Position numbers and translations under genes: made by a program. This document shows, piece by piece, positions 4,287 through 17,957 of a DNA stretch of 64,000 nt; within the stretch, counting starts at the first letter, position 1; each line of letters begins with the position of its first letter. The notes below the pieces were generated by a model. It saw nothing but the letters and a program-made list of their open reading frames with translations. It was not told the origin of the DNA and did no database searches. Origin of the DNA: Wenzhouxiangella sp. XN24 (GTDB lineage Bacteria > Pseudomonadota > Gammaproteobacteria > Steroidobacterales > XN24); assembly GCF_011064545.1 (NCBI RefSeq), contig NZ_JAAMFG010000028.1, positions 124,001 to 188,000 of the forward strand. The letters run 5' to 3'.

Positions 4287-5707
4287 ACGCCCAGGCGGAG
4301 GGCGGCAATAACCAGGCCGCCCCGGACTCTTTCTATGTCGCGCACAGCAAGATCTACCCACGGGAGGTCAAGGGGCGCTATGCCTCGCTGCGCAACCTCG
4401 CCGCATGGGTCCTGCTCGGCATCTATTACGTCCTGCCATGGATCCCATGGGACGACCGGCAGGCCGTGCTGTTCGACCTGCCGGCGCGCAAGTTCTACAT
4501 CTTCGGCCTGACCTTCTGGCCGCAGGATTTCTTCCTCATGGCGTGGCTGCTCATCATCGCCGCGCTGACCCTGTTTTTCGTCACCGCCATCGCCGGCCGC
4601 CTGTGGTGCGGTTATGCCTGTCCGCAGACGGTGTGGACCGAGGCGTTCCTGTGGATGGAGCGCATCACGGAGGGAAATCACAGCCAGCGACGCAAGCTCG
4701 ACCAGGGCCCATGGACCCGCGACAAGGTGCTGCGCAAGGGCGCAAAGCAGTTCCTCTGGATCGGCTTCGCTCTCTGGACGGGCTTCACCTTCGTCGCCTA
4801 TTTCACGCCGGCCAGGGAACTGGGGCCCAAGCTCCTCAGTTTCTCGGCCGGCCCCTGGGAGACGTTCTGGGTCCTGTTCTACGGCTTCGCGACCTACGGC
4901 AATGCCGGGCTGCTGCGCGAGCAGGTCTGCAAGTACATGTGTCCTTATGCGCGCTTCCAGAGCGCCATGTTCGACAAGGACACGATGATTATTTCCTACG
5001 ACGAGAAACGCGGGGAACCGCGCGGCCGCCGGAAGCGGTCGGTGGACCCGCGGGCCGCGGGCCTCGGTGACTGCATCGAGTGCAGCATGTGCGTGCAGGT
5101 CTGCCCGACGGGCATCGACATACGGGAAGGGCTGCAGATCGAGTGTATCGCCTGCGCGGCTTGCGTCGATGTGTGTAACGACGTCATGGACAAGATGGAT
5201 TACCCGCGCGGCCTGATCCGCTACTCGACCCATCACGCGATGGAGGAACAGCAACCGGTGCGCGTCCTGCGACCGCGCGTGATGATCTACGGTGCGCTGC
5301 TGCTCGCCCTGTTGATCGGCTTCGGCGTGGCCGTGGCTAATCGGAGCACGCTGATCGTAGACGTGATCCGTGACCGCAACACCCTGTATCGCGAACTGCC
5401 CGGCGGGTTCATCGAGAATGTCTACACCGTCACTTTCGTCAACAAGACGGAGGCCGAGCGGCGCTATCAACTGTCCGCCAGCGGCCTCGAGGGGATCGAG
5501 CTTAGCCTCGATGCATCCCTGCCGCTGATCTCGGCGCCGGGCGAGGTGCGGCGCGTTCCGGTGCGGCTGCGGGTCCCTGCCGATGCGGTCCCGCCGGGTG
5601 GCGCGGAAGTGACCTTGTTCGTCGAGGCCGTCGGCGCCGTGCCGACCACCATCGAGCGCAACACGCCGTTCCTGGGCCCGGCCGATTCTCGCGGAGGCTC
5701 ACGTTGA
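4283..5707 (+). CDS. ccoG: Cytochrome c oxidase accessory protein CcoG (RdxA/FixG)
   Basis: CcoG is an inner-membrane iron-sulfur protein needed for cbb3 biogenesis, reported in other bacteria as a copper reductase. The 474-residue product has several N-terminal membrane helices, the Cys motifs GYACPQ and CKYMCPY, then a ferredoxin-like region with CIECSMCVQVCP and CIACAACVDVC (two 4Fe-4S sites), a further helix (about residues 332-354) and a C-terminal Ig-like periplasmic domain. The ATG at 4283 overlaps the previous stop; the open frame runs further upstream, but only antisense-quality sequence lies there. Usual length for the family. Confidence 0.95.
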   Translation: MNAQAEGGNNQAAPDSFYVAHSKIYPREVKGRYASLRNLAAWVLLGIYYVLPWIPWDDRQAVLFDLPARKFYIFGLTFWPQDFFLMAWLLIIAALTLFFVTAIAGRLWCGYACPQTVWTEAFLWMERITEGNHSQRRKLDQGPWTRDKVLRKGAKQFLWIGFALWTGFTFVAYFTPARELGPKLLSFSAGPWETFWVLFYGFATYGNAGLLREQVCKYMCPYARFQSAMFDKDTMIISYDEKRGEPRGRRKRSVDPRAAGLGDCIECSMCVQVCPTGIDIREGLQIECIACAACVDVCNDVMDKMDYPRGLIRYSTHHAMEEQQPVRVLRPRVMIYGALLLALLIGFGVAVANRSTLIVDVIRDRNTLYRELPGGFIENVYTVTFVNKTEAERRYQLSASGLEGIELSLDASLPLISAPGEVRRVPVRLRVPADAVPPGGAEVTLFVEAVGAVPTTIERNTPFLGPADSRGGSR

Positions 5708-6201
5708 ACGCCGCACCGCCTCCCGAGCCGTGGTACCGCCAGTTCTGGCCGTGGTTCCTCATCGCGTTGCCGGGTTCCGTCGTAATCGCCAGCCTGTTCA
5801 CCTTCTGGCTGGCGATCAGCCACCCCAATCCTATGGTCGTGGATGATTACGCCCGCATCGCGCGCTCGACGGAACTGCGCATGGAGCGCGACCAGGCCGC
5901 TGCCGCGCTGGGGGTCACCGCCAGGATACGATTCATCGCGGGCGCGGACATCGTCGACGTGGTGCTCGAGCCGCCCGCCGTGTCGCCGGAATCGCTGCAG
6001 TTGCGCCTGTCCCACCCGCTCGTCGAGACACGCGACCAGGTCATCGATCTCGTTCGCATGCCGGGCGGATGGAGCGGCGAGGTGGCGCCGCCCGAGGGTC
6101 GCTGGTACCTGCAACTCTATCCCGGCGACGGCACGTGGCGCCTCTCGGGGGAGCTGCGGGACCAGGACGAGGTGGCCCTCGCGCCACCGCGGATTCCCTG
6201 A
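5704..6201 (+). CDS. ccoH: FixH/CcoH cbb3 assembly protein
   Basis: The 165-residue protein has one N-terminal membrane helix (about residues 16-38) followed by a periplasmic domain, the FixH pattern. PWYRQFWPWFLI near the start and the sequence DDYARIARS after the helix are typical. FixH works with the copper ATPase FixI/CcoI in cbb3 maturation. The start is TTG at 5704, overlapping the ccoG stop (TTGA), so translation is probably coupled. No in-frame ATG precedes the helix, which supports the TTG. Confidence 0.9.
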   Translation: MNAAPPPEPWYRQFWPWFLIALPGSVVIASLFTFWLAISHPNPMVVDDYARIARSTELRMERDQAAAALGVTARIRFIAGADIVDVVLEPPAVSPESLQLRLSHPLVETRDQVIDLVRMPGGWSGEVAPPEGRWYLQLYPGDGTWRLSGELRDQDEVALAPPRIP

Positions 6202-6207
6202 GCACCG

Positions 6208-8697
6208 GTGGCCGAGAGCACCTGCTTCCATTGCGGCGAGGCCCTCACCGGGACCGAACCCTGGTTCGTCAAGATCGAGGACGAGTCGCACCGCGTCTGC
6301 TGCCCCGGCTGCAAGGCGGTCGCCGAACTGATCGCCGAAACCGGCCTGGCGGATTTCTATCGATTCCGGACACTGCCGGCGAACCGGCCCAGGGGCGGCG
6401 TGGCGGCCGAGGCCCCGGAACTGCCATGGCGTCCCTTCGACCGGCCGGAGATGCTCGACGCCGTCAGTGCCCCGACCGAAGACGGCTTGCGCAGCTGCAC
6501 CATGCTGGTCGAAGGGGTGCGCTGCGCCGCCTGCGGCTGGCTGATCGAGCGCAGCCTGGAGCAGATTCCGGGTGTGCGCGAGATCCGCGTCAATCCCGCG
6601 ACCGCGCGCGCCCGCCTCGTCTGGGAGCCGGGCGTGTTGCCGCTGAGCGGCGCGCTGGGCGTGTTGTCCCGGCTCGGCTACCAGCCGCATCCCGGCAGCG
6701 CGGGCGCGGCGGACATGGCCTTGCGCGAGCGGCGTGGTGCCTTGCGCCGCCTCGGCGTCGCCGGCATCGGCATGATGCAGGTAATGATGTACGCCGTGGC
6801 GATGTACGTCGGCGCATTCCAGGACATGGACGCAGGGCTCGAGAACCTGTTCCGCTGGGTCAGCCTGCTGGTAGCCACGCCAGTGGCACTTTATTCCGGT
6901 CGGCCATTCTTCGCCGGCGCTTGGCGCGACATTCGCGCCGGCCAGCCCGGCATGGACGTGCCCGTGGCGCTGGCCGTCGGCGCCGCCTGGTGCGCGAGTG
7001 TCTTGCACACGGTATCCGGCCACGGCGAGGTGTATTTCGACTCCGTGACGATGTTCGTATTCTTTCTCTCCCTGGCGCGTTACCTCGAAATGAGCGCCCG
7101 CCACCGCGCGGGCGATACCCAGGAAGCGCTGGCACGACTGCTCCCCGAGGCGGCGCGGCGGCGCGGCGCCGACGGCGAATGGGAAACCGTGGCGCTGCGT
7201 GAACTGCGGCCCGGCGACCTCGTCTCCGTGCGACACGGCGAGACGTTGCCTGCGGATGGCCGGCTGTGCGCGGACGGGGCGCGTCTCGACGAATCCATGC
7301 TGACCGGCGAATCGCGTCCCCGACTGCGCCAGGCCGGCGACAGCGCGCTGGCGGGCAGCGTCAACCTGGGCGATCCCGTGGAGTTCCAGGTCGAACGCAC
7401 CGGCGCGGACACGCTGGTTTCGGCTATCGGCCGACTGCTCGATCGGGCGCAGGCGGAGCGCACGCCGATCGCGGCGACGGCCGATCGTATCGCCCGCTGG
7501 TTCGTGGTGGGCGTGCTGAGTGCGGCCGCGCTGACCTGGTTCGTATGGAACGCCATCGATCCTTCGCGCGCCTTCGAAATTACCCTGGCGGTGCTCGTGG
7601 TGACATGTCCATGCGCACTCTCGATCGCGACGCCGGCCGCATTGACGGCCGCGACGGGCTACCTGGCGCGGCACGGCCTGCTCGTGACACGCGCCGGCGC
7701 CATCGAGCGACTCGCCCACGTGGAGCGGGTGATCTTCGACAAGACCGGCACGCTCACCCTGGGCCAACCGCGCATCACGGATGTCGAGACCCGGGGTGAA
7801 CTGGACACCGACCGGGCCCTGGGGATCGCCGCGGCCCTGGAAGCGGAGTCGGAACATCCGATCGCCAGGGCTTTCGCCGTCGCACAGGCGCGTGGGGAGG
7901 CTACGGAGGTCCACGTGAGCCCGGGGCTGGGGATCGAGGGCCGCGTGGAAGGACGCCGCTGGCGGCTAGGGCGGCCCGACTGGGTGACTCGCCTCGCCGG
8001 TTCTTCCCTCTCAGAAGACCCCGATCCTTGCAGCGACAGGAACGATGCTAAGGAACAGACCGTGGTCTGGCTGGCCAGTGGAGACGGAGTGGCGGCCTGC
8101 TTCAGCCTGGCCGATCGCCTCCGCGCCGGGGCGCGCGCGGACGTGGCCGGACTGCTGGAACTCGGGATCGCCGCCGAGATCGCGAGCGGCGACCACGCCG
8201 ACGCCGTGGCACCGATCGCCGCCGCGGTGGGGATCCGCCAGTGGCGCGCGGGGATGACGCCTGAGGACAAGCTGGGGCTGTTGCGCGAACGGCAGGGCGA
8301 CGGCGACGGGGCCGTCGCGATGATCGGCGACGGTGTCAACGATGCGCCTGTGCTCGCGGGCGCCGACGTCTCCATCGCCATGGCCGGCGGCACTCCGCTG
8401 GCCCAGACCAGCGCCGACATGGTATTGCTCGGCGCCGCGCTCCACCCGCTCGGCGAAGGCATACATCATGCGCGTCGCACGCTGCGCATCGTGCGCCAGA
8501 ATCTCGTCTGGGCGGCGGCCTACAACACGATCGCGCTGCCGCTCGCCGCGACGGGTTTCATCGCGCCGTGGATGGCCGCCATAGGCATGTCGGCCAGTTC
8601 CCTGCTGGTGGTACTCAATGCGCTGCGTCTCTCCCGCCCGCCGAAGCGCCCCGCCCTCGCCAGTCCGCCGGTGATCACGGAGAATGCGGGCGCATGA
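6208..8697 (+). CDS. ccoI: Copper-transporting P1B-type ATPase CcoI (FixI)
   Basis: An 829-residue heavy-metal ATPase that delivers copper across the inner membrane for the CuB site of the oxidase. The N-terminus has a Cys-rich region (C6, C9, C31, C32, C35) absent from ordinary copper-export ATPases, then one heavy-metal domain with C106-AA-C109. Catalytic signatures follow: TGES near residue 366, the transmembrane CPC in TCPCALS near 467, the phosphorylated Asp in DKTGT (about D511), the SEHP motif, and GDGVND near 707. GTG at 6208 starts 6 bp after ccoH. The extra N-terminal Cys cluster plus its place in the operon mark it as the FixI/CcoI branch. Confidence 0.95.
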   Translation: MAESTCFHCGEALTGTEPWFVKIEDESHRVCCPGCKAVAELIAETGLADFYRFRTLPANRPRGGVAAEAPELPWRPFDRPEMLDAVSAPTEDGLRSCTMLVEGVRCAACGWLIERSLEQIPGVREIRVNPATARARLVWEPGVLPLSGALGVLSRLGYQPHPGSAGAADMALRERRGALRRLGVAGIGMMQVMMYAVAMYVGAFQDMDAGLENLFRWVSLLVATPVALYSGRPFFAGAWRDIRAGQPGMDVPVALAVGAAWCASVLHTVSGHGEVYFDSVTMFVFFLSLARYLEMSARHRAGDTQEALARLLPEAARRRGADGEWETVALRELRPGDLVSVRHGETLPADGRLCADGARLDESMLTGESRPRLRQAGDSALAGSVNLGDPVEFQVERTGADTLVSAIGRLLDRAQAERTPIAATADRIARWFVVGVLSAAALTWFVWNAIDPSRAFEITLAVLVVTCPCALSIATPAALTAATGYLARHGLLVTRAGAIERLAHVERVIFDKTGTLTLGQPRITDVETRGELDTDRALGIAAALEAESEHPIARAFAVAQARGEATEVHVSPGLGIEGRVEGRRWRLGRPDWVTRLAGSSLSEDPDPCSDRNDAKEQTVVWLASGDGVAACFSLADRLRAGARADVAGLLELGIAAEIASGDHADAVAPIAAAVGIRQWRAGMTPEDKLGLLRERQGDGDGAVAMIGDGVNDAPVLAGADVSIAMAGGTPLAQTSADMVLLGAALHPLGEGIHHARRTLRIVRQNLVWAAAYNTIALPLAATGFIAPWMAAIGMSASSLLVVLNALRLSRPPKRPALASPPVITENAGA

Positions 8698-8897
8698 GCA
8701 TCCTCTACCTCATGATTCCGATGGGCATCCTGATCGTGGTGGGGGCGCTGTGGGCGTTCTTCTGGGCGGTGGACAGCGGCCAGTTCGACGACCTCGAGAG
8801 CCCCAGCTGGCGAATCCTCCTGGATGACGACACCCAGCCGCCCGCGCCGCCCGGCCAGCCGGCCGACGCCGAGACACCGGAGGAGCGGCAGCCGTGA
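8694..8897 (+). CDS. ccoS: cbb3 oxidase maturation protein CcoS
   Basis: A 67-residue single-span membrane protein with the CcoS pattern: MSILYLMIPMGILIVVGA helix, then FFWAVDSGQFDDLESPSWRIL and a Pro-rich tail. CcoS is needed for insertion of cofactors into CcoN in studied bacteria. The ATG at 8694 overlaps the ccoI TGA, and its own TGA overlaps the GTG of the next gene, so three genes are read as a coupled run. Confidence 0.94.
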   Translation: MSILYLMIPMGILIVVGALWAFFWAVDSGQFDDLESPSWRILLDDDTQPPAPPGQPADAETPEERQP

Positions 8898-10855: not shown

Positions 10856-11329
10856 TCAGCCTGGCGGGTCCTCCGCCGGCTGATCGTCGGGCTCGGGCGG
10901 CGCCACATCTGCGGGGGCCTGTGCATCCGTGGTCCCGCCCGCGCCGCCGTCCGCAGTCCCGACATCCGCCGGGCCTTCGCTCGACGTGGTCAGCGCTTCC
11001 AGCCGCGCAGCCTCTGCTTCTTCCTCCGCCCGGATGCGCAATTCACGTTCCTGTTCGAGCTGTTCCCGGTATTCGGCCCGCGCGCTCTCGAACGCCTGTT
11101 CGCGCGCCTCGCGCATGGTGCGTTCCTCGATGGCTGCGATGCGCTCTGCCGCCTGGCGCGCGTTCGAGCACTCCCGCGGATCCATTCCAGAGGGGTCTTC
11201 GTTGCAACGAGTCAGGGTGCCGTAGAGCACGGCCTCGTTCTCCAGGAAATCCACCACCGAAAGGGTCTTCTTTTCGGTACACCCGCCCAGCAACAGGGCG
11301 GTGCCCAGCACAAGCAACGCAGTTCTCAT
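10856..11329 (-). CDS. EexN-like lipoprotein with coiled coil
   Basis: A 157-residue predicted lipoprotein: signal peptide with lipobox LGGC (Cys17). Residues 25-60 read like the EexN/TrbK entry-exclusion family: a conserved spacing of Cys42-N-x-D-P and Cys54-SNARQA after a FLENEAVL segment. Residues 60-112 are a charged helix, probably coiled coil (EEEAEAARL), and the tail is Ala/Pro/Asp-rich and likely disordered. No conjugation gene lies nearby, so a surface-exclusion role should not be assumed; chromosomal copies of this domain exist. It starts 76 bp after the stop of the AAA/WD40 gene on the same strand and may share its transcript. Confidence 0.7.
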   Translation of the reverse strand: MRTALLVLGTALLLGGCTEKKTLSVVDFLENEAVLYGTLTRCNEDPSGMDPRECSNARQAAERIAAIEERTMREAREQAFESARAEYREQLEQERELRIRAEEEAEAARLEALTTSSEGPADVGTADGGAGGTTDAQAPADVAPPEPDDQPAEDPPG

Positions 11330-11405: not shown

Positions 11406-14400
11406 TCATGGCGTGTCGCCGGACGATGGACCGGCGGCCGGCACAGCGGATGGTGATGCGATACCGGTACGCAGTTGGCCTTCCGCCGAGAAATACAGCT
11501 TCAGTTTCTGCTGCCACTGCGCCAGGTCCGGCTGCCATTCCTCGGGCGGCCGTTGGGCACGCTCCAGGTCGAACAGCATCATCTTGCCGCTGTCCGGTCC
11601 ACCGACGAATACGATGCGGGAGCCGTCGGCCGCGCCGCTGCGCCATGCGGTGGGCGGCATGCTGGCAGACAGCAGTCGGCTCGTCGTGACCACCAGGCGG
11701 CCCTCGGCCGGCTCGAACCGATGGATCCAGGCATCCGTCTGTGCCAGCAACGCGGCGCCGTCGGGCGAATACTGCAGGTTTCGCACCGGCGTCGGGAGCG
11801 TCACGCTCGATACCCGTCCATCCGCGCCGAACCCCCAGGCACGAACCAGCCCCGCGGCCCCTGCCACCGCGATGCTCCGGCCGTCATGGCTGATCGCCAG
11901 CCGGGTGACCGGCTCGTCCACGGCATCGGACCAGAGCCGCTCGCCGCTCGCGACATCCCAGCTTTCCACATCGCCGGCGGGCGTCCCGGTGAAAGCCCTC
12001 AAGCCCGAAGGGTCGAAGGCGACCACGTTGACAGCACGTCCCGCACCCAGGGCCGCGCCGGGTTGACCGCTCTCTGCGTCCCAGCTGCGCGCGCCGAGTG
12101 CGCCCGCCGTCAACAGGCGGCGTCCGTCGGGACCCAGGTCGATGCTGTGCACCTCGCCGCTGCCATGCTGGAACAGAGCGCCGATCTGCGCCCCGCTGCC
12201 CGCATCCCATAGCAGCACGCTGCCGTCGGCGCCGACGCTGGCGATGCGATCGCCGTCCGGGGAAAACGCCATCGCGGTCACCGGGCCGCCATGACGCGCA
12301 TCACCCCCGGTGACGATCGTCTGGCGCAGTTCCAGCGATGTCGGGTCGCGCGTTCGCAGCAGGACCCGGCCGTCCGGCAGCCCCGTACCCACGCGCAGAC
12401 CCGATGCTGCCAGCGCCACGACGGGTGCCACGGGCGGTAACTCGGCCCCCGGAACCGCATCGCCCAGCGACCAGAGGCGCACGCTCCGCGACCCATGCCC
12501 GGTAAGCAGTTCGTCTTGTTCCGTGAACAGGCTCGCCTGCCACGGCGCCCGGTCCTTCGTGCCTTGGGCGGTAGCCCGCCCGGCATGGCTGCCCTGCGCG
12601 AGAAGCGGCTCGCCCGGCGCCCGCTCGGGAAGAGTCCAGACCTCGTAACCGCCAGCCGCCGCAGGCAGCGCTACGCGGCGCCCGCTGCGGTCGAAGCCAA
12701 ACGGCGCCCGCGCGCCGCCGGGCCGCACGAGTACGAGTTCCGCCCGGGATGCGGCCAGGTCCCAGACGCGCCTCTCGCCCGCCTCGTCCACGCTCGCAAG
12801 ATAACGGCCGGAAGGATCGAATCCCAGCGCGACAACAGGCGCGCCGGGCACGAGTTCGTCGAGCAGCATGCCGTCGGTGGCATGCCAGACGCGCACCACG
12901 TCACCGCGATCCGCGACTGCCAGCAACAGGGCGCCGGACGACACCGCGAGCGCGGAGACTTCCGCGGCGCCTCCCAGGCGGAATACCTCTCGGCCGGATT
13001 CGAGTTCGCGGATCGAGGCGCTGCGCTGGTCGGCCTCTGCTATCGCCAGGTAACGGCCGTCCGGTGACACCGCCGGCGCCGTGACGAAACCGCCCGGCGC
13101 CCGGTAGCCGAAGCGCTCGCTGCCATCGACCTCCAGCACGCGCAGGGCATCTCCCGCCGCCAGGCGCTCCACCAGCATCAAGGTCCGCTCGTCGGCGAAA
13201 CCGACCCATCGCTCCGCGGCCGCCACGTCGAAACGTCCCAGCGATACCGACGCGTTGACATCCCATATGTGCAGTCGGCCGCTCGCCGCTACGTTGCGCG
13301 GTAATGCCGCCACCACCGAGCCGCGGGGAGCCAGCGCGGCCTGGACGGCGGAGGTCAGGCTCGGCGGCGGCAACAATAACGGGTTCTCCGGGAGATCCTC
13401 GGCACCGTGCCCCGGATCCGGCGACGCGCTCAGGCTCCAGCCGCGCAGGAAACCCGGCTCTCCACCCACGCGGTCGGTGATTTCGAGTTGCCAGGTGCCC
13501 AGCGTCGGCTCGCCGCGCAACGCACGCAACCCGGGCGCCTGCGCCTCGTCGATCAGCAGCACCCCGCCGGCCTCGGCAATCTCGCCCAGCGGCAGCGACG
13601 CGTTGCGTCCGGATGGCGCGACGAGCGAGGCCTGCAGGTCCTGCGGGCGCGGATGATCGAGGCGCAACTCGACCGAAAGCCCGGCAACCTGTCCCTCGGC
13701 TTCCAGGCTCACGCGGCGCCGCACGGTAACGAATTCTTCGGCGAGCAGCGGCAACGCCGCCGGTCCCGCGGGCAAACCGGTCGCCCGGTCCCAGCGCTCC
13801 ACCATGTTCCCCGCAGACAGGGTCACGAGACTGCGTCCGTCCGCCGGCGCCACCGCCTCCACGACGCCGGCGGGACGAATCACGCTCTGGAGTTGCCGGT
13901 AGCCTCCCCCGGACAGTTCGATCGCGCGCCCGGCGTCAGCCGTCGGCCCGGCCACGTTGGCGCGCAGGCGATACAGGAGCGCCTCGTCACGCTCTTCGGC
14001 CGCCTCGGCGAGCGCGGCACGGCGTTCCCAGTAATCCACCAGGAGCGCATCGGCGCGGGCCTCGTAACCCGGCAAGGCACGCATACGCTCGTCGATCAGC
14101 ACCATGTCCGGCCAGGCCGCCGCCTGGCGCCCCTGGCGAGTCAGCACGCGGGCGAGCAGTCGATCCGCGCGTTGCGCGAAGCCGGGAATCCTGCGCATCG
14201 CCGACCAGGCCTCCGTGGCCTCCTCCAGTTCGACCGAGGCGACGCGCAACGTCTGCTCGTAAGGCCGCGGCAGGACTTCGACATAAGCCCACACGCTGCC
14301 GAGAGCGAGCAGAACGAGCGCGGCCACCCGCCCGAACTTTCCCCATTCCGGCGGCAAGGCCTCGCGCGCCCAGCGATGGGAGAAAACTTCGGCGTAAATC

Positions 14401-15503
14401 CTGTTCCTGACCACCAGGCGACGTTCGTCGGTCACTTTGACCAGGCCACACACCCGCAGCAGTTCGTGTTTCGGATTGCCGGCCTCGTACTTGGGACGAC
14501 GCTCCCTGCGGATGCGCTTGTACAGGCGTAGCGCAGGACGGGCCAGCTCGTGGGCCCGATCCAGGCTGTCCAGCACACGACTCGTGCTGGTCTCCCGGGT
14601 GATCGCGTTGCGCGTGAAGAACCGTGCCGCGACCAGCTTGTCCACAGCCGCGTCGGAACTGACCGGCACGGTGCTGCGCGCCACCGCCTGGCAGAGCTTC
14701 TGCGTCAGGTAAGGATGACCCGAGGTCCAGTAGAGGATCCGGTAGAGGGCGCGCTCGGCGTCACCCGCCGGCAGGCCGAGCCCGTCCGCCAGTGGCCGCG
14801 CCTCGTCGAAACGGAAGTCCGGCAGCTCGAGGCCCACCCCGATCTCGGCGGCCGCGAGGCCGGCCCGACGCGCCTTGCCGGCGGGCAGGGCCGCGCCGAG
14901 CAGGACGAACGACAGGCGATGATATTCCGGCTCGCCGGCTCGCGCGTCATGACAGCCCCGGACGATACCGAACAACTCGGTCGCATAGTCGAGCTGCTCG
15001 ACGCTGTCGATTTCGTCGAGAAAGATGGTCACCGGCGCGCGGCTCGCCCCGAGCACGATCTCCCAGAAGAATTCGCCCAGGCGCTGGGCGGGCGACAGCG
15101 GCATGCGCTCCTGCCACCAGGCTTGCAGGTCGACGTTCAGGCGCAGGTCACGCAGCACCCGGTAGGCCAGGCCGTAATACCAGCGCCCCACGTCGGTGGA
15201 ACCGTCGCGGCTGCCGAGCTGTGAAACATCGATGATGGCCGCCAGCTGCCCATCGGCGCGCAGGCGGCTCGCCGCACGCGCCACCAGGCTGCTCTTGCCC
15301 GAGAATCGTGGCGCGATGACATGGCAGTAGTCCCGCGCGGCCAGCCGCTCGAGCAGCTCGCGGTCGGTGGGCCGCGTGACGTAACAGGGGCGATCGGGCG
15401 CCACGGGCCCGCCCGCGACAAAAAAATCCTCCGCGCGGCGGCCACGGATCGCTCGTGCAGGCTCACGGGCCTCGCGCTTCGGGGTATCGCCGGATGACGT
15501 CAT
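11406..15503 (-). CDS. Membrane-anchored AAA-like ATPase with P-domain-like segment and WD40 propeller
   Basis: A 1365-residue protein. Residues about 25-300 are an AAA-like (AAA_35-type) NTPase: Walker A APRFSGKS at 64-71, Walker B VTIFLDEID at 158-166 and the family motif SGHPYLTQKLCQ near 261-272. Residues about 310-375 look like a winged helix. One membrane helix follows (about 391-410). A helical region (420-530) leads to a segment (590-693) resembling a proprotein-convertase P-domain (RPQDLQASLVAPSG, GTWQLEITD, LRGWSLS). The rest, to about 1300, holds at least seven WD40-like blades (FSPDGDRIAS, VLLWD, FDPSGLRAF). The ATG at 15503 has GGAGA nine bases ahead; the frame stays open far upstream but over the antisense of other genes. 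Function unknown; a signalling or STAND-like sensor role is inference. Confidence 0.85.
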   Translation of the reverse strand: MTSSGDTPKREAREPARAIRGRRAEDFFVAGGPVAPDRPCYVTRPTDRELLERLAARDYCHVIAPRFSGKSSLVARAASRLRADGQLAAIIDVSQLGSRDGSTDVGRWYYGLAYRVLRDLRLNVDLQAWWQERMPLSPAQRLGEFFWEIVLGASRAPVTIFLDEIDSVEQLDYATELFGIVRGCHDARAGEPEYHRLSFVLLGAALPAGKARRAGLAAAEIGVGLELPDFRFDEARPLADGLGLPAGDAERALYRILYWTSGHPYLTQKLCQAVARSTVPVSSDAAVDKLVAARFFTRNAITRETSTSRVLDSLDRAHELARPALRLYKRIRRERRPKYEAGNPKHELLRVCGLVKVTDERRLVVRNRIYAEVFSHRWAREALPPEWGKFGRVAALVLLALGSVWAYVEVLPRPYEQTLRVASVELEEATEAWSAMRRIPGFAQRADRLLARVLTRQGRQAAAWPDMVLIDERMRALPGYEARADALLVDYWERRAALAEAAEERDEALLYRLRANVAGPTADAGRAIELSGGGYRQLQSVIRPAGVVEAVAPADGRSLVTLSAGNMVERWDRATGLPAGPAALPLLAEEFVTVRRRVSLEAEGQVAGLSVELRLDHPRPQDLQASLVAPSGRNASLPLGEIAEAGGVLLIDEAQAPGLRALRGEPTLGTWQLEITDRVGGEPGFLRGWSLSASPDPGHGAEDLPENPLLLPPPSLTSAVQAALAPRGSVVAALPRNVAASGRLHIWDVNASVSLGRFDVAAAERWVGFADERTLMLVERLAAGDALRVLEVDGSERFGYRAPGGFVTAPAVSPDGRYLAIAEADQRSASIRELESGREVFRLGGAAEVSALAVSSGALLLAVADRGDVVRVWHATDGMLLDELVPGAPVVALGFDPSGRYLASVDEAGERRVWDLAASRAELVLVRPGGARAPFGFDRSGRRVALPAAAGGYEVWTLPERAPGEPLLAQGSHAGRATAQGTKDRAPWQASLFTEQDELLTGHGSRSVRLWSLGDAVPGAELPPVAPVVALAASGLRVGTGLPDGRVLLRTRDPTSLELRQTIVTGGDARHGGPVTAMAFSPDGDRIASVGADGSVLLWDAGSGAQIGALFQHGSGEVHSIDLGPDGRRLLTAGALGARSWDAESGQPGAALGAGRAVNVVAFDPSGLRAFTGTPAGDVESWDVASGERLWSDAVDEPVTRLAISHDGRSIAVAGAAGLVRAWGFGADGRVSSVTLPTPVRNLQYSPDGAALLAQTDAWIHRFEPAEGRLVVTTSRLLSASMPPTAWRSGAADGSRIVFVGGPDSGKMMLFDLERAQRPPEEWQPDLAQWQQKLKLYFSAEGQLRTGIASPSAVPAAGPSSGDTP

Positions 15504-15584
15504 GGGATGCATTCTCCGCGAGGCGGGCCCGCGAAGCCAAGCTCGAGGCTGGCTTCCGCGTCCGTCGGCATCAATAATGGTGGC

Positions 15585-15872
15585 ATGACAACCGCCAGAG
15601 TCCATGCCATGAACGACGCCTGCCACGAGCACAATCGCAGCCGACCCCTGCCGCAGGCGCCGAAAGCCTGGGGCGTGCGCCTGAGCCTGCCGGAAAACGA
15701 CCCCATGCGCCCGATCCTCGGTGACGACTGGCACGAGTACCACTGGTTTGCCAGCGAAGCGGCCCGCGAGCAGAAAATCGACCAGCTGCGCCGACAGTTC
15801 ACCTACTACCGGAAAGGCGACCAGCCCAGTTTCATCATCGAGCGGGTCGACCGCGAGACCGACGCTGACTGA
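15585..15872 (+). CDS. Small protein of unknown function upstream of TonB receptor
   Basis: A 95-residue soluble protein, charged and aromatic, with WHEYHWFASEAAREQKIDQL followed by QFTYYRKGDQPSFIIERVDR. No signal peptide or membrane helix. It is divergent from the AAA/WD40 gene and ends 3 bp before the TonB-receptor start, so it probably heads that transcript. The ATG at 15585 is preceded by GGTGG; an alternative ATG at 15609 has no better ribosome site. I do not recognise the family. The 81-bp gap to the divergent gene holds a 7-bp inverted repeat (15533-15539 / 15550-15556). Confidence 0.7.
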   Translation: MTTARVHAMNDACHEHNRSRPLPQAPKAWGVRLSLPENDPMRPILGDDWHEYHWFASEAAREQKIDQLRRQFTYYRKGDQPSFIIERVDRETDAD

Positions 15873-15875
15873 ACC

Positions 15876-17957
15876 ATGCAGAAACGGCTTCACATGGGGC
15901 CCGGCGCCACGCGGGCCTTTGTCATGCTCGTCGCCGCCCTGCCCGGGATGCATGCCGCAGCTACGGAACTGGATCCCGTCACCGTCACGGCGACACGCTC
16001 CGCGGCTCCGATCGTGGCCACACCCGGAAACGCAGGGCTGATCGGCGCAGAGAGCATCGAGGCCGTCGCGCCCACCCATGCCTCGGAGCTGTTCTGGCGC
16101 GTGCCGGGCACCTGGATCACGCGCAACAGCGGCCAGGAAAGCCTCGTCGCGATCCGCTCGCCGGTGTTGTCGGGGCCGGGCGCCTGCGGTGCATTCCTGT
16201 TCCTGGAAGACGGCATCCCGTCTCGACCTGCCGGATTCTGCAACGTGAATCAACTCTTCGAACTCAACCTTGCCCAGGCACGGGCGGTCGAGGTGATTCG
16301 CGGCCCCGGGAGCTCGCTGTATGGTTCCAACGCACTGCACGGGATCGTCAACGTCCTGATGCCCGCTCCCGGAGACGGCCGCGATTACGTGTCCATCGAC
16401 GGCGGACCCGCGGATTACGTGCGCGGGCGTTTCAGCGGCGGGCGCTGGGACGGCGCGCGTGGATTTCGTGTCACCGGCCAGCTCGCCCACGATGGCGGGT
16501 GGCGGGACGCGACGGGTTACGAGCAGGCCAAGGTCAATGGCATCTGGCGGGCTCGCGCAGGCGATACGGAGCGAGAGATCTCGCTGGCCGCCACGACCCT
16601 GGACCAGGAGACGGCCGGCTTCATCGAGGGATTTCGCGCGTATCGCGACGCCGCGGCACGCCAGAGCAACCCGAACCCAGAGGCCTTTCGCGAGGCCGAC
16701 AGCCTCAGGATCGCCGGCGCCTGGCGGCGCGAGGACGGCGTGGCGCGACTCGAGATCCGGCCGTATCTGCGCGCCAGCGACATGCGTTTCCTGCAGCACT
16801 TCCTTCCCGGACAGCCGCTGGAGGAAAACGGCCAGGTGAGCGGAGGAGTCCAGGTCACTGCGCGCCGGGCCGCCGCGGGCGGCATGCTGCATTACGGCAT
16901 CGATGCGGAGATCGTCACTGGCCGCCTCGAGCAGTCCCAGTCCGGCCCGACCACGGGGCTGCCGCCGCCTGTCGCCGCCCGGCGCCCGCCGGGCCAGCAC
17001 TACGACTACGAGGTACGCGCGCACAGCCTGGCGCCCTGGCTGCACTGGGAGCGCCCGCTGGGAGATCGGTGGAGCCTCGGGCTGGGACTGCGGGGCGAAA
17101 GCCTCCGCTATGACTACGACAATCGCATGCTCGACGGCAACAGCCGTGACGACGGCAGCGAATGCCCCGGGGGCTGTCTCTACACGCGTCCGGCCGATCG
17201 TGACGACCGCTTCGACAACCTGGCGCCCAAGCTGACGCTCGGCTGGCGGCCGGCGGCGCGACAGCTGGCGTGGGTGGCGGCCCGGCGCGGCTTCCGTGCC
17301 CCCCAGGCGACCGAGCTGTACCGCCTGCAGAGCGGCCAGGTCGTGGCGGATCTCTCGAGCGAGACCATCGACAGCCTGGAGCTAGGCTGGCGTGGCTATG
17401 CGGGGACGCTGGCCTGGGAGCTGGCGGCTTACCGGATGGACAAGCGCAATTTCATCTTCCGCGACGGCGACGGCTTCAACGTCGCGGACGGACGCACCCG
17501 TCACGTCGGCATGGAAGTCTCGTTGCAGTGGCAGCTGAGCGCCCGGCTGCGGCTGGAGACGGACCTGAGCTTCGCGCGCCATACCTGGCGTTTCGATCGG
17601 GACGTCGGACGCGGCGAGATCATTGTCTCGGGCAATGACACCGATTCCGCGCCGCGCCGCTTCTCCAGCACGCGGCTCGGCTGGGAAGGACGGCGAGGCC
17701 TGCGTGCCGAGCTCGAGTGGATCTCCATGGGCCCCTACTGGCTGGATGCCGTGAACTCGGCGCGCTACGCGGGCCATGACCTGCTGCACCTGCGGCTCAC
17801 GCAGCCCTTGCGCCAGGGCCTCTATGTCGCCCTGCGGCTGCACAACGTGGCGAATGCCGAATACGCGGAACGAGCCGACTTCGCCTTCGGGGAGTATCGC
17901 TATTTTCCCGGTCGCGACCGCAGCCTGTTCATCGAGCTCGGGTGGCGCGCGCATTGA
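15876..17957 (+). CDS. TonB-dependent outer-membrane receptor
   Basis: A 693-residue receptor: signal peptide ending near HAAA, TonB-box-like LDPVTVTATRS, plug domain with VEVIRGPGSSLYGSNALHG, then a 22-strand-type barrel ending in an aromatic-rich strand. It takes up a scarce ligand using TonB energy. The plug holds a Cys pair (GACGAFLFLEDG and GFCNVNQ) and a loop has ECPGGC, both possible disulfides. Substrate cannot be told from sequence; vitamin B12, haem, siderophore or metal chelates are all possible. No TonB/ExbB/ExbD or ABC permease is adjacent. Confidence 0.93.
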   Translation: MQKRLHMGPGATRAFVMLVAALPGMHAAATELDPVTVTATRSAAPIVATPGNAGLIGAESIEAVAPTHASELFWRVPGTWITRNSGQESLVAIRSPVLSGPGACGAFLFLEDGIPSRPAGFCNVNQLFELNLAQARAVEVIRGPGSSLYGSNALHGIVNVLMPAPGDGRDYVSIDGGPADYVRGRFSGGRWDGARGFRVTGQLAHDGGWRDATGYEQAKVNGIWRARAGDTEREISLAATTLDQETAGFIEGFRAYRDAAARQSNPNPEAFREADSLRIAGAWRREDGVARLEIRPYLRASDMRFLQHFLPGQPLEENGQVSGGVQVTARRAAAGGMLHYGIDAEIVTGRLEQSQSGPTTGLPPPVAARRPPGQHYDYEVRAHSLAPWLHWERPLGDRWSLGLGLRGESLRYDYDNRMLDGNSRDDGSECPGGCLYTRPADRDDRFDNLAPKLTLGWRPAARQLAWVAARRGFRAPQATELYRLQSGQVVADLSSETIDSLELGWRGYAGTLAWELAAYRMDKRNFIFRDGDGFNVADGRTRHVGMEVSLQWQLSARLRLETDLSFARHTWRFDRDVGRGEIIVSGNDTDSAPRRFSSTRLGWEGRRGLRAELEWISMGPYWLDAVNSARYAGHDLLHLRLTQPLRQGLYVALRLHNVANAEYAERADFAFGEYRYFPGRDRSLFIELGWRAH

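Follow-up and report, generated by a model that had tools for sequence, protein, structure and literature searches.

A putative membrane-spanning, Apaf-1-like STAND receptor with a P-domain in its first propeller, conserved across much of one gammaproteobacterial order

STAND switches are best known from cytoplasmic proteins of immunity and cell death, and are defined by a single module that unites P-loop core, helical domain and winged helix and carries a GxP motif. Two-gene operons of STAND proteins have been described as nSTAND2, in which the partners carry GT4 or HEPN and one nucleoside triphosphatase (NTPase) is inactive (Kaur et al. 2021, PMC8195603, accessible text). Layouts in which a STAND NTPase is followed by a membrane helix and WD40 repeats are also already known, in annotation. 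P-domains are otherwise described behind the subtilisin domains of proteases, at least in the accessible part of PMC2605481. Here, we analysed a stretch of 64,000 nucleotides from contig NZ_JAAMFG010000028.1 of Wenzhouxiangella sp. XN24 (Steroidobacterales), referred to as the window, in which one gene (the large gene) encodes a 1365-residue protein (the large protein) combining an AAA_35 NTPase, a membrane helix, a P-domain and WD40 propellers. We assign a probability of slightly under one half (about 0.48) to the reading that it is a membrane-spanning, Apaf-1-like STAND receptor that lacks the usual partner and is kept as an envelope receptor. Computation establishes which domains are present, in what order and how far they are conserved, that there is one membrane helix, and that no second AAA_35 gene occurs in the sampled order.

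Domain organization of the large protein

All three domains score above the Pfam gathering cut-offs: AAA_35 (PF14516) at residues 32–375 with 78.6 bits (cut-off 27), P_proprotein (PF01483) at residues 609–692 with 36.3 bits (cut-off 21), and WD40 with 69.1 bits (cut-off 27). The initial annotation had named an AAA_35-type NTPase with both Walker motifs, a winged-helix-like region, one membrane helix and a P-domain-like segment at residues 590–693, and each of these was recovered. The motifs lie where they had been placed (the GKSS of Walker A occupies residues 69–72), the winged helix appears in the structural model described below, the membrane helix is strong at residues 393–411, and the hidden Markov model search brings the P-domain over its cut-off. 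Conservation was assessed on a set of 81 sequences, consisting of the window protein and the best 80 of 456 loci found in a scan of named genomes, a few of which are cut at contig ends. The P-domain residues P630, G669, W671 and W689 are kept in 81/81, and a profile of the helical arm and P-domain matches 3hjr, an extracellular serine protease, over its equivalent region (E 3e-7). Judged by its sequence, segment 590–693 is a P-domain; the possibility that it is a WD40 blade is unsupported by Pfam, by the strand pattern of the model and by the profile match to 3hjr. Because AAA_35, P-domain and WD40 all match in 30/30 proteins at E 0.01 (the window protein and its 29 best-scoring orthologues) and the P-domain residues are kept throughout the larger set, the combination is more than chance. 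The window genome (3.29 Mb) has a single AAA_35 gene and a single P-domain, which the large protein combines, and no second P-domain that could have served as a local source. Pfam identified no effector domain in the large protein.

Two AlphaFold2 models, each obtained from a 57-row alignment, cover residues 1–560 (predicted local distance difference test score, pLDDT, 87.5; predicted template modelling score, pTM, 0.71) and residues 405–1365 (pLDDT 88.8, pTM 0.87). In the first model, a disordered stretch (residues 1–33, pLDDT < 50) is followed by a P-loop core, a helical domain and a winged helix, and then by the membrane helix and the helical arm. The NTPase module aligns with 2qen (Z 19.7, root-mean-square deviation (rmsd) 4.1, 310 residues), RPP1 (Z 17.6, rmsd 4.2, 296 residues), CED-4 (Z 17.0, rmsd 4.6, 300 residues) and Apaf-1 (Z 15.2, rmsd 4.3, 299 residues). 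Because the fold match at residues ~35–385 extends to CED-4, RPP1 and Apaf-1, and because G262 and P264 are present in every sequence of the set, the modelled module appears to unite the features by which STAND proteins are defined, a combination that is not exclusive to them, as ORC-type folds score similarly. The NTPase profile matched only RecA P-loop stretches among PDB sequences.

The second model contains two propellers with ~fourteen blades together. The first has ~seven blades, by strand count only, and residues 588–692 form strands outside its blade pattern. Residues 1021–1315 match seven-bladed WD40 propellers such as 7bie_A, and the C-terminal model also matches tandem WD proteins and Apaf-1. 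The WD40 blades of the initial annotation were thus retained, but the single propeller of seven or more blades was replaced by two.

The half of the protein that follows the membrane helix is probably periplasmic, because cysteine is nearly absent from it: no cysteine occurs after the helix in 77/81 sequences, as compared to a mean of 4.0 before it. Lysine and arginine together are commoner before the helix in 50 sequences, equal in 24 and fewer in 7, and two of the paired relatives described below carry CHASE2 or Amidase_3 (a peptidoglycan amidase) after their membrane helix.

An alternative ATG start is found at 15512, three codons upstream of the coordinate listed in Table 1. The frame remains open for ~500 codons further upstream (11406–17045, minus strand), antisense to the TonB receptor gene. 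This extension is probably a high-GC artefact, because the lengths of the orthologues, ~1320–1400 residues in the first set of 30 except for two cut at contig ends, point that way.

Distribution and the nucleotide site

The large gene is found in 7/7 genomes of the family examined and in 71/147 sampled genomes of the order, representing 29/55 genera. Most carrier genomes yield one match; the two matches in each of seven others appear to be fragments of a single gene, several lying on separate contigs. AAA_35 is present in exactly the 71 genomes that carry the large gene, one each (two contig pieces in genome G143), and no second AAA_35 gene was found either in these or elsewhere among the 147. 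The gene is single-copy and fixed across much of one order. In 369 sampled genomes of the class, scored for two candidates per genome, eight matches were obtained at E 1e-30, of which three, in members of the order, are full-length and five others cover WD40 only; no full-length copy was found outside the order in this sample. In the phylum scan (398 genomes, five candidates per genome), the arm and P-domain profile matched 15/397 other genomes, all within profile positions 148–312 of 352, around the P-domain. The best 80 of the 456 relatives are mostly metagenome-assembled genomes of Gammaproteobacteria or Proteobacteria, many of them Woeseiaceae, plus Thioalkalivibrio sp. XN8; three bear the title Rhodospirillales or Rhodospirillaceae, and one of these titles is probably mistaken.

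Compared with the window protein, the NTPase averages 41% identity, the arm 33%, the P-domain 34% and the propellers 20–22%, so that the P-domain is better conserved than the propeller around it. Five residues, G69, K70, D163, G262 and P264, are invariant in the 81 sequences. E164, which by its position would be the catalytic glutamate, is less constant: in 20/81 the acid following D163 has given way to R, G, Q or S, and on a quick tree built without those columns this loss amounts to at least eight changes. Paired sensors from 11 plasmids and one phage contig have E at this position in 12/12. Arginine follows the Walker B aspartate in ten loci (L045, L047, L049, L050, L051, L054, L055, L056, L074 and L113), which form one side of a branch and give no lipoprotein match, the downstream flank being too short in three.

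Since the acid after D163 has been lost repeatedly and G69, K70 and D163 are constant, these sequences would be better explained by a nucleotide-binding switch able to do without hydrolysis than by a motor. The same data bear on the idea of an energy-coupled envelope machine, in which cytoplasmic ATP hydrolysis would drive the periplasmic arm, propellers and P-domain, for instance in assembling or moving an envelope component, with the downstream lipoprotein as a co-factor. Such a machine would account for the invariant Walker A and Walker B aspartate, and for a single copy held at a conserved locus next to a lipoprotein partner, but we consider it unlikely in view of the repeated loss of the acid and of the resemblance of the NTPase module to switch proteins. 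Loss of the Walker B acid would be better accommodated by a membrane-anchored scaffold, whose propellers hold envelope proteins together and whose NTPase binds nucleotide for stability only. Propellers are common binding platforms, and the lack of an effector domain is also in keeping with a scaffold. Nevertheless, GK, D163 and GxP are invariant, and the NTPase changes more slowly than the propellers, which suggests a working switch and makes a purely structural role improbable.

Paired relatives, neighbouring genes and the proposed receptor

Relatives of the NTPase part occur on plasmids in a different arrangement. Fifteen plasmid records with AAA_35 (L143–L145 and L158–L169), out of 40 matching the NTPase part, were read. 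In 11/15 (L143–L145, L158, L159, L161, L164, L165 and L167–L169), the sensor gene is immediately preceded by an AAA_35 gene, with gaps of -8 to +25 nucleotides. The denominator includes L166, which is ambiguous and was not counted as a pair, and L160, L162 and L163, larger proteins that have AAA_35 at their end; in sensors L143 and L144, AAA_35 was assigned from tblastn matches. The paired plasmids are cyanobacterial or belong to Chloroflexota and Abditibacteriota. Upstream partners feature TIR in five pairs, CHAT in three and trypsin in one, some of them combined (6/11 overall). A membrane helix follows AAA_35 in 9/11 plasmid sensors, and sensor regions include WD40 (five), CHASE2, amidase, GUN4, MORN and PAS/GAF. 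The single relative found in IMG/VR, L118, is a pair of TIR-AAA_35 and AAA_35-helix-TPR genes with a 4-base overlap (4473–8053); from the neighbouring frames, it seems to sit in a phage tail region, and it is a candidate phage-borne immune system. No relatives of its sensor were found among 50,697 phage records. As read from their sequences, the plasmid pairs are two-gene AAA_35 systems with exchangeable sensor domains and a mostly membrane-spanning sensor. Within the sampled order, AAA_35 is confined to the large gene and no second copy accompanies it; the window protein is therefore a sensor-type protein without a partner.

These relatives bear on the proposal, made in the initial annotation, of a new signalling or defence-type sensor. 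The signalling part is favoured by the NTPase fold shared with NLR proteins, CED-4 and Apaf-1, by the membrane helix, and by relatives whose genes adjoin those of TIR or CHAT proteins. A role in defence is possible, but we do not favour it. A working immune receptor would detect phage or envelope attack in the periplasm and trigger cell death via an unlinked effector, as might be expected from the NLR-like fold and from AAA_35 sensors that elsewhere, including on plasmids and a phage contig, adjoin TIR, CHAT or trypsin proteins. The large gene, however, occurs once per genome, at a kept locus, in 71/147 genomes and with no second AAA_35 gene; its P-domain and arm have stayed well conserved instead of diversifying; and PADLOC gave no system-level match, returning only a partial match to HEAT-ARM_XIII with its best stretch at residues 1020–1150, in the WD40 part. 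A role in immunity is consequently improbable in our view.

The large protein seems to have been a conflict-type sensor once and to have become a fixed envelope receptor. As a receptor, its propellers and P-domain would recognise an envelope signal in the periplasm, most likely with the participation of the downstream EexN-type lipoprotein. Signal binding would move the arm and the membrane helix, and the cytoplasmic NTPase, if it behaves like STAND proteins in general, would shift between closed and open nucleotide-bound states and probably cluster after opening. Elsewhere, the output is likely provided by the TIR, CHAT or trypsin of the upstream AAA_35 protein, present in about half of the cases; that of the window protein would have to pass to an unrelated partner. 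A more specific history is possible, yet doubtful: a conflict-type two-gene STAND system may have been domesticated, its sensor losing the TIR/CHAT-type partner, gaining the P-domain in the first propeller and the EexN-type lipoprotein, and working today as a single-copy envelope receptor by nucleotide binding and not by steady hydrolysis.

The lipoprotein is the probable partner of the large protein. Of six orthologues compared with the NF033894 cut-off, four pass and two fall just short, and an alignment of 24 rows shows three invariant cysteines, one of them in the lipobox. It was found in 46/147 genomes of the order (E 1e-5), 45 of which also carry the large gene. In the 42 genomes in which both genes lie on one contig, the lipoprotein gene is always downstream and in the same orientation; in 41 the distance is at most 3.5 kb, and in G004 it is 10.3 kb. 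For the remaining three co-carriers (G008, G047 and G060), the large-gene match ends early, as at a contig end.

Several observations weigh against this reading as an envelope receptor. Archaeal ORC2 aligns with the NTPase module as well as NLRs do (Z 17.8, rmsd 4.8, 307 residues), and therefore the fold alone is no proof of STAND. Residues 1–31 hold no effector. Among the paired relatives, GUN4, which is normally cytoplasmic, follows the helix in two, L164 has no helix and L169 has C-terminal helices only. Five of the 11 upstream partners show no recognised effector, and a sensor that never had a partner is an alternative to partner loss. As for the lipoprotein, its association with the large gene (Fisher p 8e-18) is uncorrected for relatedness, 26/71 large-gene genomes have no detectable lipoprotein, and genome G096 has a weak, partial lipoprotein match and no large gene.

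The neighbours listed in the initial annotation, a small divergent gene, a TonB receptor and a lipoprotein, are all present, and the survey of homologues, besides the domain set shared by 30/30 proteins, identified the lipoprotein and the small gene as shared neighbours. No recognised effector was found among the conserved neighbours of the large gene. The small proteins form a family of ~80–90 residues with nine invariant positions among 28 rows, found in 117/147 genomes of the order; the window member has no match in Pfam, NCBIfam or PHROG. The gene adjoins the large gene in 73/76 testable loci. It also occurs in 50 of the 76 genomes that lack the large gene, and it was rejected as a dedicated partner on these grounds. 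In such genomes its loci, as read, lie beside TonB, Ysc84, kinase or icd/aceK genes. Because the small gene and the TonB receptor gene are neighbours also where the large gene is missing, their link to the large gene is probably old synteny. No sigma-70-type promoter was found between the divergent genes. A Kdo/WaaP-like kinase gene is divergent beside the large gene in 50/76 testable loci and is absent at the window locus. Kinases such as that at 8184–8861 (minus strand) of locus L112 share an HNDLAKExN motif. Kinase matches were counted only at E < 1e-80, weaker ones being disregarded because the profile is contaminated with antisense frames of the large gene. The kinase also occurs without the large gene and was rejected as a partner.

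Table 1 Features of the large gene and its neighbours in the window.
Feature	Position	Strand	Remarks
Large gene (1365-residue protein; coding sequence, stop included)	11406–15503	minus	Open frame; orthologues in 71/147 order genomes
STAND-like NTPase module, residues 32–380 (P-loop core, helical domain, winged helix)	14364–15410	minus	AAA_35; fold match ~35–385
Walker A, residues 64–73	15285–15314	minus	G69, K70 in 81/81
Walker B, residues 158–164	15012–15032	minus	D163 in 81/81; E164 or D in 61/81
GxP, residues 262–264	14712–14720	minus	G and P in 81/81
Membrane helix, residues 393–411	14271–14327	minus	Hydropathy 2.12
Helical arm, residues 412–535	13899–14270	minus	Models
First propeller, residues 536–1019, P-domain inserted	12447–13898	minus	Model strand pattern
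P-domain, residues 589–694, between blades 1 and 2	13422–13739	minus	PF01483 at 609–692; profile match; strands 588–692
Second propeller, residues 1020–1316, seven-bladed by match	11556–12446	minus	7bie_A, Z 29.2, rmsd 2.8, 268 residues
EexN-type lipoprotein, probable partner	10856–11329	minus	NF033894 40.9 bits, cut-off 33; 45/46 co-occurrence
Small divergent gene, conserved neighbour	15612–15872	plus	Frame could start at 15507
TonB receptor	15876–17957	plus	Divergent neighbour

Comparison with known systems

In the literature covered, which leaves out most subscription papers, no description of the large-protein family or of the AAA_35 pairs was found, and no named homologue of known function was encountered. 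The family seems to place an Apaf-1-like sensor beyond the inner membrane, and is kept in Woeseiaceae and relatives. Woeseiales account for 1–22% of 16S sequences from marine sediments according to the accessible part of PMC7082342. The large protein raises the questions of how STAND signalling may cross a membrane, what role a P-domain has in the absence of a protease, and how an immune-type sensor is kept without an effector. The AAA_35 pairs, in turn, are candidates for transmembrane bacterial immunity.

The initial annotation had regarded the architecture as unfamiliar. This holds for the combination with the P-domain, which among the sampled genomes was seen only in this order and is absent from four comparators, namely three paired WD40 sensors and a Streptomyces nSTAND1 protein, in which no P-domain match was obtained and positive controls matched; in sensors L159 and L167, the P-domain was looked for only among the Pfam matches listed. 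It does not hold for the NTPase-helix-WD40 layout, known as AAA_35 and nSTAND1 versions in cyanobacteria, Chloroflexota and Streptomyces. New are the position of the P-domain within a propeller, the fixation of a single-copy gene in much of one order, the association with a lipoprotein and the lack of a partner.

The closest systems are the AAA_35 pairs, annotated as 'AAA-like domain-containing protein', in which AAA_35 is likewise followed by a helix and a sensor region (9/11 and L118), WD40 in five cases. They differ in having a second AAA_35 gene directly upstream, with TIR, CHAT or trypsin in 6/11, and no P-domain in the three WD40 sensors tested; the large gene has no second gene, is chromosomal and has a lipoprotein downstream. 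The pairs themselves resemble nSTAND2 in having two adjacent genes each with a STAND NTPase, a likeness of concept. The Streptomyces protein (WP_251091385.1, L146) shares with the large protein a STAND NTPase, one membrane helix and WD40 repeats, but its NTPase is nSTAND1, not AAA_35, and it has no P-domain. Proteases of the kexin/furin type and 3hjr share the P-domain; in contrast, the large protein has no protease domain and its P-domain lies inside a propeller. Apaf-1, CED-4 and NLR proteins share the module of NTPase, helical domain and winged helix (Z 15–18), and Apaf-1 also a helical arm with tandem WD40 propellers, the first of which is assigned in the large protein by strand count only. 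Unlike Apaf-1, the large protein has no N-terminal CARD or other effector, AAA_35 starting at residue 32, and it features a membrane helix between switch and sensor and a P-domain insert.

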